Assembly: GCA_947490615.1 (NCBI GenBank)
Contig: CANLHK010000008.1
Span: 1-64,000 of the forward strand
DNA from: Planctomycetaceae bacterium
GTDB lineage: Bacteria; Planctomycetota; Phycisphaerae; Phycisphaerales; SM1A02
DNA: 64,000 bases
Reading direction: 5' to 3'
The notes beneath the pieces were generated by a model that saw nothing but the letters and a program-made list of their open reading frames with translations, made no database searches and was not told the origin of the DNA. The position numbers were made by a program, and so were the translations under genes. Shown here one piece after another: positions 41,509-47,044 of this stretch. Numbering within the stretch: the stretch's first letter is position 1; each line of letters starts with the position of its first letter.

Positions 41509-42174
41509 ATGCCACTTGATCGCAACCAGATCGCGCAGCGCGCTGCGCAGGAACTCCATGACGGCTTCTATGTGAACCTCGGGATCGGCATGCCGACCTT
41601 GGTGGCGAACTTCGTCCCGCGCGGCATGACCGTTTGGCTGCAATCGGAGAACGGATTGCTCGGGATGGGACCGTTTCCTGAGGACAGCGAGGTCGACGCC
41701 GATCTCATCAACGCAGGCAAGCAAACGGTGACGGGCGTCCCTGGCCACTCGTTCTTCTCAAGCGCCGACAGTTTCGCGATGATCCGCGGCGGACACATCG
41801 ATCTCGCCATTCTCGGCGCGATGGAAGTCTCACAAGAAGGCGACATCGCCAACTGGATGATCCCTGGCAAACTCGTCAAAGGCATGGGCGGCGCCATGGA
41901 TCTCGTCGCAGGCGTTCGCCGCGTTGTGGTGATGATGGAACATGTGAACAAGAAGGGCGAGTCGAAGATCATCCCCGCCTGCACGCTTCCACTCACAGGC
42001 CGACGATGCATCGACCTCATCATCACCGAGCTCTGCGTGCTCGAGATGGACAAGACTCGCCGCCGTTACGCGCTCAAGGAACTCGCGCCAGGCGTGTCCA
42101 TCGAAGAGGTGCTCGCCAAGACGACGGCCGAAATCCTCGTCCCCGCATCGGTCGGGACGGTCGCGTGCTCCTGA
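41509..42174 (+). CDS. scoB: 3-oxoacid CoA-transferase subunit B
   Basis: A 221-residue beta subunit of the SCOT/butyrate-acetoacetate CoA-transferase family. The catalytic Glu is in [11 protein letters not shown], with [16 protein letters not shown] upstream and the C-terminal [10 protein letters not shown]. It is normal in length and looks intact. The alpha subunit gene (scoA), usually directly upstream, is absent: the neighbour is a divergent dehydrogenase. The last coding bases overlap a 21-base relic of the ABC-F start (42165-42185). Confidence 0.92.
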
Positions 42175-42185
42175 CCGCGAAAGAC
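42165..42185 (+). pseudogene. Relic of the ABC-F gene start overlapping the scoB stop
   Basis: The 21 bases match the first seven codons of the ABC-F gene at 45143-45163 with one difference (GTG CTC CTG/CTC ACC GCG AAA GAC). Here they are followed by TGA. They indicate that the ABC-F gene formerly began overlapping the scoB 3' end. Confidence 0.7.
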
Positions 42186-42200
42186 TGAGCACCGCCAAAG

Positions 42201-42234
42201 CCGACGGGGCGCGGCGAGTGCCACGCCCCGTCGG
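42201..42234. terminator. Hairpin between convergent scoB and dockerin-type fragment
   Basis: An 11-bp perfect stem (42201-42211 with 42224-42234) encloses a 12-base loop. Only short T-runs follow in either direction, so it is a weak two-way terminator candidate. Confidence 0.5.
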
Positions 42235-42261
42235 AAAGCAGTCCGCACACCGCCAGTCTCG

Positions 42262-42780
42262 TCAGTTGCACGGCCCCCACGCCGAGAGAACCAATGCGAG
42301 ATCGATGCTGCTGACCACTCCATCGTGGTTGACATCGCCGACGCCTGACGCAGCCGCAGCGCCCCACGAACTCAACACGATTCCGAGATCGCCGCCGTTG
42401 ATGACGCCGTCCCCAGTGATATCCGCGAAACAACCGCAGACCGTCGCGGGGTCCTCCAACAAGAACGGACCATCCACATCAATCGGTGCGTTCCCGCAGA
42501 TGCTCGTGCTTCCCGACACGACACACGACGACTGTCCGCCAAGGACGCGAAGTCCCGCTGCACCTGCAAGCAGAGGATCGCCAGAGCTGTTCTTGCTGAT
42601 GAGCGTGTCGATGAGGTGCAGCACTACGGGGTGGTACTGGGCAACTGCTGCATGTCGACATCGGATTGGCGGATGCGTTGGTGCGCTGTAGAGTGAAGCG
42701 TCCGCGCGTGCGTGCGACACGCTTGCGTGAAGAGCGGTCAGCGAGCACGAGAACACATTTGAGCAAATCGTAGACTCCAA
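42262..42780 (-). CDS. Dockerin-like C-terminal fragment, probably a gene remnant
   Basis: A 172-residue frame from a TTG. Its last 60 residues are a clear paired EF-hand module (FADITGDGVINGGDLGIVLSSWG, DVNHDGVVSSIDLALVLSAWG) as in the intact secreted proteins of this window. The N-terminal part has a signal-like stretch but then runs through the 43-base repeat at 42643-42685, and the middle (SSCVVSGSTSICGNAPIDVDG) looks like the tail of a larger protein. I read it as a truncated or chimeric remnant, though expression cannot be excluded. Confidence 0.45.
   Translation of the reverse strand: MESTICSNVFSCSLTALHASVSHARADASLYSAPTHPPIRCRHAAVAQYHPVVLHLIDTLISKNSSGDPLLAGAAGLRVLGGQSSCVVSGSTSICGNAPIDVDGPFLLEDPATVCGCFADITGDGVINGGDLGIVLSSWGAAAASGVGDVNHDGVVSSIDLALVLSAWGPCN
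42643..42685 (+). repeat. 43-base repeat, copy 1
   Basis: This copy begins AACTGCTGCATGT and contains GGATTGGCGGATGCG. It matches 44441-44483 at 39 of 43 positions with no gap. It lies about 190 bases upstream of the cysteine-rich protein gene. Confidence 0.75.
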
Positions 42781-42875
42781 GTTGTAGGTTTATGGGGGGG
42801 GAAGGGTAATCTGCGCTCGAGCGCACTGATCTGGTGAGCGACGCGACTCGTTCAGAAACTCCTTGAAGCGGCACC

Positions 42876-43781
42876 GTGAAACGGAACCCAACCAGTCATT
42901 TCCTCGGCGTTTGGGCAGCGATCTTGGCGATGGGCAGTTGGATGATTCCGACCGGCGCTGTTCTGTACCACACCGAAACTGCAATCGCGGAGCCGACGGA
43001 TGATGACGCGCCAAGCGACGACCTGAAGAAATCGGTTCGCGTGGAGGAGTTGCCACTGGCGATGCTTCCAGTTGAGGAGATCAGCGCAGACCCAGCGGGC
43101 AACTTTGAGGTACTCGTCACGCTTTCCCGCTTTGACTGCGAGGGTCCCCTTGGTCCAACCACGGCCAGTGTTCCGCTGAGCAGCCCCGGACAACCGTTGA
43201 ACGAAACCATGTTGATCAGCGGTTCGACCGCCATCGTCGCGGTCATGTTTGTTGATGGCAACGGCCAATTCGGCTTCGGGGCTGGCATCGTTTCGAACAT
43301 CACGCTCGAGTGCATTGGCGGGGGAGATGCCGCGCCGCACAAGGGGTGTGCATTCCGGTTGAAGGAGCGAACCGCGACGGCGCAGGAAGCGCTTTTCGCG
43401 GCGGAATCTGCCGCAACGCGCATTGCGGCGCACTCCGCATCTTGGTTGACTGAGCCAATTCAGCTGACTCCTGGAACCTATGGCCACTGCTGGGCAACCT
43501 GCATGGCTGCGGAAGACCAGACAAACTGGAACGAGTATGTCGCCTGCTGTCGGGGGTTTCTTGCGCTTCAACCTGGCCAATGGGAGACGCTTTTGTCATC
43601 GTGCGCTCTGGGCTGCGTTCCCCTCGCGCTCGTTGGTGGGGTGGGTTACCTCGCGTGTCTGTTCGCGTGTCTCGAGTCGCTCGTGGGAGCTGAGGTGATC
43701 GCGTGTGCAGCCTGTCTCACTGAGTACGGTCTGAAGCATCTTGGGTCTGCTGCTGGTTGCGCGTGGGAGTGTGCATGGTGA
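42876..43781 (+). CDS. Cysteine-rich secreted protein of unknown function
   Basis: A 301-residue protein with a GTG start. A signal peptide (MKRNPTSHFLGVWAAILAMGSW) leads an acidic, beta-rich region to about residue 200. The last 90 residues hold about a dozen cysteines in CxxxC-like groups (GHCWATCMAAED, YVACCRGF, SCALGCVPLAL, LACLFACLESL, ACAACLTEYG, GCAWECAW) mixed with hydrophobic segments, suggesting a disulfide-rich or membrane-associated end. I know no family. The third-codon GC looks lower than in neighbouring genes. The following small membrane protein overlaps its stop. A broken copy of its signal peptide lies at 44737-44790. Confidence 0.6.
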   Translation: MKRNPTSHFLGVWAAILAMGSWMIPTGAVLYHTETAIAEPTDDDAPSDDLKKSVRVEELPLAMLPVEEISADPAGNFEVLVTLSRFDCEGPLGPTTASVPLSSPGQPLNETMLISGSTAIVAVMFVDGNGQFGFGAGIVSNITLECIGGGDAAPHKGCAFRLKERTATAQEALFAAESAATRIAAHSASWLTEPIQLTPGTYGHCWATCMAAEDQTNWNEYVACCRGFLALQPGQWETLLSSCALGCVPLALVGGVGYLACLFACLESLVGAEVIACAACLTEYGLKHLGSAAGCAWECAW

Positions 43782-44089
43782 ATTTGCGTCGGGCTCGGTG
43801 TGAAAGTGTCGTATGGGGGATATGGTTCTTTGGCGCCTTTGCGGCTGCGATTTTCCTCCGGCGGATGGCCCCCGCAAGGTTTGAAACAGCGGCGTCCATC
43901 ATCGAACTACTCGTGGTCCTTTCAGCGCTCCCGATGTCGATGCGATACCGGCACTTGACTCGCGGTACGCCCGAGGGTGAGCGGTGGTCGCGTTTGAGGC
44001 AACGGTTCTTCCTCGGCTGGGCGCTGCTGGCAGTGCTCGCTTTGATGGCGATGGCGCTCTACAAAGGGATTTCAGCAATCAACTCGTAG
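43778..44089 (+). CDS. Small two-helix membrane protein
   Basis: A 103-residue protein with two hydrophobic segments (VVWGIWFFGAFAAAIFL near 10-27 and FFLGWALLAVLALMAMALY near 77-95) separated by a charged loop. The GTG at 43778 overlaps the stop of the cysteine-rich gene (GTGA); an in-frame ATG at 43775 is equally close. The coupling suggests a joint function with its partner, for example membrane anchoring or export, but this is inference from position alone. Confidence 0.55.
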   Translation: MNLRRARCESVVWGIWFFGAFAAAIFLRRMAPARFETAASIIELLVVLSALPMSMRYRHLTRGTPEGERWSRLRQRFFLGWALLAVLALMAMALYKGISAINS

Positions 44090-44091
44090 CG

Positions 44092-44109
44092 GTGGCGGTG
44101 TGTCGCCAC
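44092..44109 (+). terminator. Small hairpin after the membrane-protein gene
   Basis: GTGGCG pairs with CGCCAC across a GTGTGT loop, three bases beyond the stop. No T-run follows, so termination is uncertain. Confidence 0.3.
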
Positions 44110-44440
44110 GCGCTCTCAAGTCGCGCACGATTGGGACGCGAGTCCATCGCGCGTGCCAGCGGGATGCCCACATGGCAACTTGGTTCGAGGCCGGTACCCG
44201 CGGCCAACCCTCGCGGCGTGGCGCGGAGACTCGGAAGGACGCGGCTGCGCGACGAGCACTCTTCAAGCTTTGCTTTTTCGTGCTGCTGTTCCTGGCAAGG
44301 CTCGTCCGTGTGTCGTTCCTCGGGAAGTGAGGCGCGCGCCACACAAACGGCGCGCGAACAGGCATGAGTCGCCGTCTTGCGCGATCACGCCGCCGCGATT
44401 CGATTTCTCGCAGGGCCAGAAAGCGCATGCACCACGGGCT

Positions 44441-44483
44441 AACTGCTGCATGTTGACGGCGGATTGGCGGATGCGTTTGTGCG
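44441..44483 (+). repeat. 43-base repeat, copy 2
   Basis: The second copy of the sequence at 42643-42685, 39 of 43 identical, in the same orientation. It lies about 250 bases upstream of the broken signal-peptide copy, paralleling the first copy's position before the intact gene. Confidence 0.75.
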
Positions 44484-44736
44484 GCAGGGACGGACAATCA
44501 CGGAGCGCGGCAGACGCACGCCATCGCTGAGCGGGTGTGATTCGGCGCGCGGCCGGCAACGATGAACCGCTCATCTTGCGCGTGCGCATGTCTGGGCTCA
44601 CGCCGATCGAGTGTTTGCAAAGTGATCCAAAGATAGTTTGCGCATGTTGCATTCGTTGGGGGGCAGCAGACTCGTCAAGAGCGGGCCGCTCTCGTGGTCG
44701 TCACCCATTCGGTCAACCCACATTGGATCAGCACTC

Positions 44737-44790
44737 ATGAAGCTGAACACATCCGTTCGATTCCTCAGCGTTTGGGCAGCAAGCTCCTAG
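44737..44790 (+). pseudogene. Broken copy of the cysteine-rich protein's signal peptide
   Basis: An 18-codon frame, [17 protein letters not shown] then stop, matches the start of the protein at 42876 (MKRNPTSHFLGVWAA). The DNA is nearly identical over the TTCCTC ... TTTGGGCAGC part. Nothing of the rest of the gene follows. Confidence 0.6.
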
Positions 44791-44858
44791 TCCTGCACGG
44801 CCTTTGGGCTGCTGGGATCGCCGAGTGGTTGCTCGCTCCCGAGGGGCGGGGGACCTTA

Positions 44859-45028
44859 CAGCGTGCTGCGCAGGAACTCCGTGACGGCTTCTCTGTGAAC
44901 CTCGGGATCGGCATGCCGACCTTGGTGGCGAATCTCGTCCCGCGCGGCATGACCGTTTGGCTGCAATCGGAGAACGGCCTGCTCGGGATGGGACCGTTTC
45001 CTGAGGACAGTGAGGTCGACGCCGATCT
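44859..45028 (+). pseudogene. Truncated scoB duplicate
   Basis: A gap-free match to scoB bases 41536-41705 with about eight differences in 170 (roughly 95%), coding the part from QRAAQEL through the SENG catalytic region to DSEVDADL. It lacks the true start and the last two thirds; after 45028 the sequence diverges and the frame ends by 45122. The surviving frame is open, which points to a recent event. Confidence 0.85.
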
Positions 45029-45126
45029 TCATGATGACTCCTTTGCGGCTGAGGCGCCGCACTCTCCATACGACATCGCGAACCTCGCGCGCACGCAATC
45101 GCTTCCCACTCTTCCGCTCTGATCGC

Positions 45127-45132
45127 TACCCT
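45127..45132 (+). promoter_or_regulatory. -10-like box directly upstream of the ABC-F gene
   Basis: TACCCT ends 10 bases before the GTG at 45143, without a ribosome site. It lies in DNA with no counterpart at the scoB end, so this gene may have gained its own promoter after the rearrangement. Confidence 0.45.
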
Positions 45133-45142
45133 CTCGCCCTCC

Positions 45143-47044
45143 GTGCTCCTCACCGCGAAAGACCTCTCCAAGTCCCATGGCCACCGCGAGTTGTTTCGCG
45201 GCGTGTGCATCTCCATTGCTGAAGATGAGCGCATCGGGATGATCGGCCCCAACGGCGCAGGGAAATCGACGCTGCTGCGCATGCTTGCCTCGCGGGAGGA
45301 ACCCGACGATGGCACGATTCGAACGCCGCGCGGCACGGTGACGGTGTATGTCCCGCAGTCCGATGATTTTGCGGCGGGTGTCACGGCACTGGGGGCTGCG
45401 ACCGAAGCTGCGATGCGTTGCGCGCAGACGCACGGCGATCATCACGAGGCCGAAGTCCTCGCGGGGATGATCCTCGGAAAGATTGGCTTCGATACGACGC
45501 GCATGGAGTTGGAGGCGATCCGCCTTTCGGGCGGCTGGCGCAAGCGACTCAGCGTTGCCTGCGCGTTGGCGAGTGCGGGAGGCAAGCCCGATTTGCTCTA
45601 CCTCGACGAGCCGACGAACCATCTCGATGTCGAAGGCCTGCAATGGATGGAGGAGTTTCTCCTGCGCGGCAGCCACGATCTCTCGGCGGGCGCCGTCATC
45701 TTTGTGACCCACGATCGCGTCTTTCTTGAGAACTGCGCCACGCGCATCATCGAACTTTCGCGCGCCTATCCCGAGGGCACGCTCTCGGTGGACGGCAACT
45801 ACACCGAGTTCCGCCGTCGCAAGGGCGAGTTTTTGCAGATGCAGTCGCGCGCGCAAGAGAGCCTCCAAAACACGGTGCGCGAAGATGATCGCTGGCTTGG
45901 TCGACGCGCCAAAGCGCGACGAACCAAATCGCAGTCGCGCATCGATGAGAGCGCGGATCGTCGTGCAGAACTCTCGGTGCTTTCAGCACGCAACAACGCA
46001 GCGGGCGGCGACACCGCGGGCATCGACTTTTCCGCAAGCGGACGCAAGACGCGCAAGTTGATCTCGGCCGAAGGCATTGCCAAGTCGATGGGTGGCAATC
46101 TCCTCTTTCAGAAGCTCGACCTCGAGGTCGTGCCTGGTGAATGCATTGGGCTCATGGGTCCAAACGGCGCAGGAAAGACCACGCTGTTGCGTGTCCTCAC
46201 TGGTGAACTCACCGCCGACGCTGGAACGGTGCGCGTGGCTGATCCCAAGCCGCGCATCGTCACCATGTCGCAGACGCGCGCGGAGTTCCCTAAGGGCGCG
46301 CTCTTGCAGGATGCGATCTCACCGTGGGGCGAGAAGGTTCGCTTCCGTGATACCGAGATGCACATCAAGAGTTGGTCGCGTCGATTTCTCTTTCGCGATG
46401 AACAACTCCTGCAGGCGGTTTCCATGCTTTCGGGCGGCGAACTCGCGCGTGCGCATGTCGCGCGCATGATGCTCGAATCCGCTGACATGCTCGTGCTTGA
46501 CGAGCCGACCAACGATCTCGACATCCCCACCCTCGAAGTTCTTGAAGAAGCGATCTCGACTTTCCCAGGCGCAACGCTTCTCGTCACCCACGATCGTGCG
46601 ATGCTCGAGAGTCTCGCGACGCGCATCGTCGTGCTTGGCGCGCCCGACCGCGTTCCTCGCGTGGTCACCAGCCTCACCCAGGCACTGCGCGCGCTTGGAG
46701 AGTTCGAGTCTGCCTCGACTTCGGACGCGCCGACGCGCAAGAGCACCACTCCCGCGTTGGTGGCGACCGTGCCCACTCTCGCCGCTCCACCCACCGCTCC
46801 TTCCACCGCCCCCCCCACCAAGGGGAAACTTTCCTACAACGAGCAGCGCGAGCTTGGTGGTATAGAGGCTTCCATCGCGGCAGCCGAGAAGAAGGCGTCT
46901 GAGGCAGACGCCAAAGTGAACGACCCACGGTTGATCCCCGATCATGTCGCCTATGCGAAGGCGTGCGATGCGCTCAACGCAGCGCAGACCGAGGTTGCGC
47001 GCCTCTACGCGCGCTGGGAAGAACTCGAAACCAAACGAGGCTAA
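45143..47044 (+). CDS. ABC-F family ATPase (Uup/EttA-like)
   Basis: A 633-residue soluble protein with two nucleotide-binding domains and no membrane part. Domain 1: Walker A GPNGAGKSTLL near residue 35, signature LSGGWRKRL, Walker B LYLDEPTNHLD. Domain 2: GPNGAGKTTLL, LSGGELARAHV, LVLDEPTNDLD. The linker between is charged, and a C-terminal coiled coil (LSYNEQRELGGIEASIAAAEKKASE ... LYARWEELETK) after a Pro/Ala/Thr spacer matches the ABC-F C-domain of Uup. Such proteins act on the ribosome E site or on branched DNA. It starts with GTG; the next gene follows after two bases. Confidence 0.92.
   Translation: MLLTAKDLSKSHGHRELFRGVCISIAEDERIGMIGPNGAGKSTLLRMLASREEPDDGTIRTPRGTVTVYVPQSDDFAAGVTALGAATEAAMRCAQTHGDHHEAEVLAGMILGKIGFDTTRMELEAIRLSGGWRKRLSVACALASAGGKPDLLYLDEPTNHLDVEGLQWMEEFLLRGSHDLSAGAVIFVTHDRVFLENCATRIIELSRAYPEGTLSVDGNYTEFRRRKGEFLQMQSRAQESLQNTVREDDRWLGRRAKARRTKSQSRIDESADRRAELSVLSARNNAAGGDTAGIDFSASGRKTRKLISAEGIAKSMGGNLLFQKLDLEVVPGECIGLMGPNGAGKTTLLRVLTGELTADAGTVRVADPKPRIVTMSQTRAEFPKGALLQDAISPWGEKVRFRDTEMHIKSWSRRFLFRDEQLLQAVSMLSGGELARAHVARMMLESADMLVLDEPTNDLDIPTLEVLEEAISTFPGATLLVTHDRAMLESLATRIVVLGAPDRVPRVVTSLTQALRALGEFESASTSDAPTRKSTTPALVATVPTLAAPPTAPSTAPPTKGKLSYNEQRELGGIEASIAAAEKKASEADAKVNDPRLIPDHVAYAKACDALNAAQTEVARLYARWEELETKRG

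Follow-up and report, generated by a model that had tools for sequence, protein, structure and literature searches.

The scoB stop/ABC-F start junction as a likely spot of recurrent insertion in a group of related planctomycetes

In the stretch of DNA analysed here (the window: 64,000 nucleotides (nt), positions 1 to 64,000 of contig CANLHK010000008.1 of the Planctomycetaceae bacterium assembly GCA_947490615.1), a patchwork of 2.96 kilobases (kb) lies between scoB, which encodes subunit B of a 3-oxoacid CoA-transferase, and a gene for an ATPase of the ABC-F family, whose members act on ribosomes. In a number of related genomes the same two genes overlap, and in others they are held apart by different DNA. 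The explanation which best accounts for the whole, and which we consider likely if some way from certain, is that the point at which scoB stops and ABC-F starts is a recurrent insertion spot. On the best reading of the sequences it would be a site of gene turnover, reshuffled by recombination between relatives, at which coupled translation is exchanged for autonomous expression of the downstream gene. The two genes and the repeat found at their borders are as follows:

41509-42174, plus strand: scoB, 3-oxoacid CoA-transferase subunit B (CoA_trans in Pfam, TIGR02428); its stop lies inside the former ABC-F start
42164-42185, plus strand: left copy of the scoB/ABC-F overlap, made up of the end of scoB and 11 nt of former ABC-F coding sequence past the stop
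45142-45163, plus strand: right copy of the overlap, the ABC-F start, recognized by its direct-repeat match to the left copy
45143-47044, plus strand: ABC-F ATPase gene with a GTG start (Pfam and NCBIfam matches)

Among the best 25 of 238 NCBIfam matches, Uup and EttA are the leading models for the ABC-F protein, whose scores do not reach the cut-offs of the ABC-F models in that set. A first-pass annotation of this DNA, made from the sequence alone, had noted that the end of scoB matches the first seven codons of ABC-F with one mismatch; the repeat was found again, here as a 22-nt direct repeat whose copies differ at one position and are offset by 2978 nt, and it bounds the patchwork. Allowing up to three mismatches, the 22-mer has two matches in total in the window, and two matches were obtained in 0 of 100 shuffles. 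The part of the left copy that reaches beyond the scoB stop covers codons 4-7 of ABC-F. At present the ABC-F start lies 2.97 kb downstream of the scoB stop, and not upstream of it as in a coupled pair.

The comparison with relatives was based on a search for scoB in 61 genomes (the source genome, G000, and 60 relatives) and for ABC-F in the 16 genomes of the genus, 15 of which have a junction that could be assessed, the remaining one (G005) yielding neither gene at the cut-offs. Between the same flanking genes the content differs: ten genus genomes carry no insert and have the ABC-F start inside the end of scoB (G004, G006, G007, G008, G009, G011, G012, G013, G014 and G015), and five carry one, two of them (G003 and G010) being half seen because their contigs end. 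In the sister genus, g17, the genes overlap in G063 and G064, giving 12 loci of relatives in all in which the ABC-F start overlaps the scoB stop; G031 has a 49-nt spacer between the two genes, and in G062 no ABC-F match reached the cut-off. At the 14 ABC-F loci examined in other genera no scoB was found within the available upstream DNA (at most 1.5 kb). On a concatenated tree of three proteins G000 falls together with G008 and G013, in both of which the genes overlap (bootstrap 100), and the same grouping is recovered on the ABC-F tree (100). Given the overlapping relatives and this placement, the overlap is most simply ancestral and the island derived. The first-pass annotation had supposed an ancestral ABC-F gene beginning at a GTG that overlapped the scoB stop, and had proposed looking for an uninterrupted overlap in sister genomes; that comparison bears the supposition out, both within the genus and in G063 and G064.

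The island does split an overlapping pair, as had been claimed, but such a split is not unique to this genome, as the junction is also open in G001, G002, G003 and G010. A dockerin gene in antisense orientation lies between scoB and ABC-F in G001 (contig C6) and G002, 3' of scoB in G010 and beside ABC-F in G003, the contigs of the last two ending there. In the domain scan, which covered G001, G002 and G010, the junction proteins of G001 (715 amino acids (aa)) and G002 (692 aa) gave kelch, beta-helix and dockerin matches and the partial open reading frame (ORF) of G010 gave beta-helix and dockerin matches; aligned pieces of the four junction dockerin genes share 66-95% nucleotide identity. Two sister genomes, G002, which is open, and G012, which is closed, differ by just this exchange: with 2613 positions aligned on one side and 2539 on the other, their flanks share 98.5% identity, without a single mismatch within 127 nt to the left and 119 nt to the right of the insert, yet 2461 nt lie between the flanks in the one and 29 nt in the other. 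Because G006 and G011, the nearest relatives of G002 and G012 on the concatenated tree, share the overlap form of G012, the G002 junction was most simply opened recently.

There is also an indication of exchange. Contig C6 of G001 is 98.0% identical to G010 over the 3' part of scoB (453 nt) and 95.5% identical over the dockerin gene (1280 nt), whereas over ald-scoB contig C32 of G001 shares 77.7% identity with G010. Beyond ABC-F, six matches to G010 were obtained with the following 13.5 kb of C6, the two longer ones at 81% and 70%. Since the identity is high in the scoB end and the dockerin gene and low elsewhere, the open allele has probably moved between lineages. This instance of an insert recombining together with its flank should be considered with caution, as G001 may mix strains: it holds two scoB sequences, 82.8% alike and followed by nearly the same DNA over the 97 nt available on C32, which are either tandem copies or the product of mixed strains. 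The number of changes between open and closed state is four on the ald and ABC-F trees (the latter without G010) and five on the concatenated and scoB trees. When five labels were placed at random on the concatenated tree, five changes were needed in 2412 of 5000 draws and four in 2007 of 5000; as random labels need similar numbers, the open state is not clustered on the tree. As a separate observation, a 15-nt tandem unit, GCGTGCTGAATAGGG, which starts like the ABC-F start motif, follows scoB in G001 and G010 in three, two and one copies, its sites being the end of L086 (reverse strand), positions 456-540 of L085 and positions 3689-3760 of L088.

The opening of the junction may have consequences for the expression of ABC-F, and these would centre on the DNA directly before its start:

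45029-45142, divergent: promoter-like region with AAAGGAG (45044-45038) and ATG (45032-45030) on the minus strand and TACCCT (45127-45132) on the plus strand

The minus-strand pair, a Shine-Dalgarno-like motif and a start codon, corresponds to the start of a lost antisense gene. These 114 nt align with the start and promoter region of the G001 dockerin gene with a score of 23.5 (null 11.9 +- 2.6; reached in 0 of 2000 shuffles), and the simplest reading of this alignment is that ABC-F probably acquired its promoter from a dockerin-type insertion, the body of which was replaced later. The first-pass annotation had proposed a new -10 box for ABC-F; a -10-like box is present as TACCCT, but the promoter region was probably not newly made. 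Across the genomes a TANNNT motif ends 7-10 nt before ABC-F in five of five testable open loci (G000, G001, G002, G003 and G031; the ABC-F gene of G010 is off its contig) and in none of the 12 overlapping loci, a post hoc count, as the motif was picked after the boxes of scoB had been seen. The latter, TATCAT or TATGAT, stand 8-10 nt before the ATG in all 16 loci compared, the scoB of the window having TATCAT at 8 nt. It is thus suggested that opening of the junction goes with an ABC-F promoter of its own, probably leaderless; coupling in the closed state would follow from the overlap.

Between the repeats the island is made up of the following parts, in addition to the promoter-like region at its right edge:

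42201-42234, no strand: G+C-rich inverted repeat directly after scoB, terminator-like by appearance (inverted-repeat listing)
42262-42641, minus strand: dockerin gene remnant, of which the 3' part is left (Pfam dockerin match)
42636-42686, plus strand: rhaD-like 3' end fragment of 17 codons (sequence comparison)
42876-43781, plus strand: gene (ORF) for a 301-aa protein with a signal-like N-terminus and a Cys-rich hydrophobic C-terminus, judged by eye
43757-44089, plus strand: gene for a small hydrophobic protein, membrane-like by eye, overlapping the end of the Cys-rich gene
44379-44484, plus strand: second, longer rhaD-like 3' end of 35 codons with an in-frame stop (sequence comparison)
44738-44785, plus strand: decayed second copy of the Cys-rich gene's 5' end (48 nt at 77% identity)
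44859-45028, plus strand: partial scoB copy, nt 28-197 of scoB (162 of 170 positions identical to resident 41536-41705)

The dockerin remnant, the pair of Cys-rich and membrane genes and the partial scoB copy had all been recognized in the first-pass annotation and all three hold good, and what was there called decayed DNA can in part be named, as two rhaD 3' ends and a broken copy of the Cys-rich 5' end. The genome also has an intact rhaD (RhaD by TIGR02632), followed by rhaM. Compared over 50 nt, the two rhaD-like pieces share 86% identity; with eight intact rhaD genes they share 68-83% (76% and 77% with the genome's own copy), and these values make a single diverged or imported allele, not the present rhaD, their probable source. 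Identity between the scoB copy and resident scoB is 95.3%, as against 76.5-84.0% between resident scoB and that of 15 relatives, and by this comparison the copy derives from the organism's own lineage. Of its eight differing sites, the relatives' majority state is found in the copy at three and in resident scoB at five; as both have changed since the duplication, the 170-nt piece is unlikely to be an echo of the assembly. The capture of foreign DNA, also claimed earlier, is borne out in that DNA of other genes is present, and for the rhaD-like and Cys-rich parts the word foreign may be apt; for the scoB copy it is not, nor is it clearly so for the dockerin 3' end, which has its best match elsewhere in the same genome. 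Base composition does not set the island apart as foreign (G+C 0.615 against 0.627). A Pfam scan of 13 island ORFs matched the dockerin remnant and the scoB piece (CoA-transferase) only, with no integrase or transposase among them, shorter ORFs lying outside the scan. A tandem duplication of 1.8 kb inside the island was also considered but is not borne out, as homology was not significant either between the two spacers that separate the rhaD-like fragments from the Cys-rich 5' ends (score reached in 113 of 1000 shuffles) or in the DNA after these 5' ends (417 of 1000).

The first-pass annotation explained the island by tandem duplication of the scoB end and ABC-F start, and in its simple form, with unrelated DNA inserted later, this would account for the identity of about 95% to their partners that is seen in the 22-nt repeat as well as in the scoB copy of 170 nt, and for both 22-mer copies sharing codons that are absent from the ten overlapping relatives. 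The junction is indeed duplicated. However, the scoB copy breaks off at nt 197 and is continued by promoter-like DNA related to G001 instead of the remainder of scoB, and the G002 junction is open without a second scoB match in the DNA compared; a simple tandem duplication thus appears unlikely. It is more improbable still that the genus started from an open junction and that deletions between junction repeats then produced the overlaps several times over. In favour of this, G001, G002, G003 and G010 have dockerin genes that show homology over all of their available length, and these genomes are scattered on the tree, but G063 and G064 of the sister genus overlap as well, and a single overlap form is shared by G006, G011 and G012, so that in G002, whose sister is G012, it was most simply lost. 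Insertion of a transposon or site-specific element that duplicated a 22-bp target has least in its favour and very little to recommend it, for although the direct repeat exactly bounds the island, it coincides with the gene overlap, where retaining both genes demands a duplicate anyway, the inserts of relatives have different ends, and neither a transposase gene (13 ORFs, with Pfam matches to dockerin and CoA-transferase only) nor an inverted pair joining the island ends (among the best 25 of 30 inverted-repeat pairs) was found.

Recurrent insertion followed by recombination would allow the following course of events. The starting point, as comparison with the relatives indicates, was an overlapping scoB/ABC-F pair. 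As the two genes share bases, both work after an insertion only if the overlap is duplicated or rebuilt, and the 22-nt repeat would then be a selected by-product, not the footprint of a transposase. To judge from 45029-45142, the junction of this lineage was probably entered by a dockerin-type gene in antisense orientation, together with its divergent promoter region, such as is seen in relatives. The dockerin body would then have been replaced by the rhaD-like fragments, the Cys-rich/membrane-like pair and the scoB fragment, probably via homology-assisted recombination with incoming DNA of relatives. As an outcome ABC-F, once dependent on the transcription of scoB and perhaps on termination-reinitiation, would be read from its own -10-like box, which ends 10 nt before the GTG, a position from which the message is probably leaderless or nearly so.

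Several observations weigh against this account. Single-gene trees disagree on the placement of G000: on the ald tree its partner is G008 (97) while G013 stands elsewhere, and the scoB tree, which is short, puts G000 outside both. The genomes, probably assembled from metagenomes, are split into many contigs; among the open ones G003 and G010 are half seen as their contigs end in the region, and G001 has its two scoB sequences. The insert of G002 has no visible donor tract in its flanks. Remnants of the ABC-F start beside scoB were not significant in G001, G010 or G002 (200, 168 and 214 of 1000 shuffles, the G010 test using the G001 ABC-F start), and duplication of the overlap is consequently seen in the genome of the window only. 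At the right edge, the comparison of 45029-45142 with G002 (score reached in 1934 of 2000 shuffles) and G003 (1566 of 2000) was not significant. At the left, the dockerin 3' end (42275-42641) is closest not to the junction dockerin genes of relatives but to a gene on contig C7 of the same genome, being 85% identical to its 3' end, so the left dockerin end and the right edge need not stem from one gene. The C7 gene (L096 3345-5762) encodes 805 aa with C-type lectin, DUF642 and dockerin matches and a weak pectinesterase match.

A bolder proposal goes beyond recurrent insertion, and we put it forward tentatively, as it is rather doubtful: the junction may be a horizontally circulating regulatory allele with two states, closed and coupled to scoB, or open with a leaderless promoter and cargo on the opposite strand, between which species switch by allele replacement. 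If this were true, the cargo would earn its place by releasing ABC-F from its dependence on a metabolic gene.

The Cys-rich/membrane-like gene pair of the island is of sporadic occurrence. Full-length relatives of the Cys-rich gene occur in G004, where it adjoins an ISL3-type transposase, and in G030, G066 and G076, while the relative in G061 is weaker and interrupted; in each of the first four a small ORF overlaps the end of the gene, with just 15-19% identity to the ORF of the window. A single-sequence search (E <= 0.01) matched seven of 181 family genomes (source included; three matches short) and a profile search five of 397 sampled class genomes (source included; two short), and a further scan of genome contigs for relatives of the protein gave two loci, which are those of G076 and G066. 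The Cys-rich protein had no match in Pfam, NCBIfam or PDB sequences, and its predicted structure, at a mean predicted local distance difference test (pLDDT) score of 46.9, was of low confidence and was not used. There appears to be a sporadic two-gene unit (42876-44089, L137, L136, L100 and L101) of a secreted-looking Cys-rich protein and a small membrane-like protein; that it is bacteriocin-like would be a guess. The N-terminal signal-like segment (42876-42960) also resembles that of otherwise different proteins in G010 and G007 (L103 and L104).

The separation of overlapping, coupled genes has been little studied, and this junction offers several natural replicates, among them two genomes 98.5% identical around it with the insert present in one and absent from the other. 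As each testable opening has a -10-like box at the new gene start, the exchange of coupling for a promoter should be directly measurable. According to one study of the turnover of overlapping gene pairs (PMC4161906), published work has treated the creation of such pairs and not their loss, and no account of insertion into overlapping genes turned up in a targeted literature search. The junction is similar to the turnover described in that study in that overlap is gained and lost between neighbours over short evolutionary times, but differs in that overlap is here lost through a kilobase insertion and not through changes of start or stop codons. With translational coupling by termination-reinitiation (PMC6728339, PMC10666635) the likeness lies in two genes on one strand whose stop and start overlap in the relatives; the difference is that coupling is here inferred and the pair of the window no longer overlaps. 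The spot also resembles integration hotspots, where the interval between two conserved core genes is diversified as homologous recombination acts on the flanks (PMC5635113). Variable content with rapid turnover between two conserved genes and the lack of a recognised mobile-element gene in the 13 island ORFs are in keeping with such hotspots, and so would be a flank travelling with the insert, as probably happened in G001 and G010 but is not visible in G002, whereas the inserts here are one gene or a few fragments and the flanking genes overlap by about 10 nt. The island is ordinary in kind, if unusually clear in its anatomy; what is distinctive is that the flanks overlap when closed, so that any opening has to leave the overlap doubled or remade and to bring a promoter as well.

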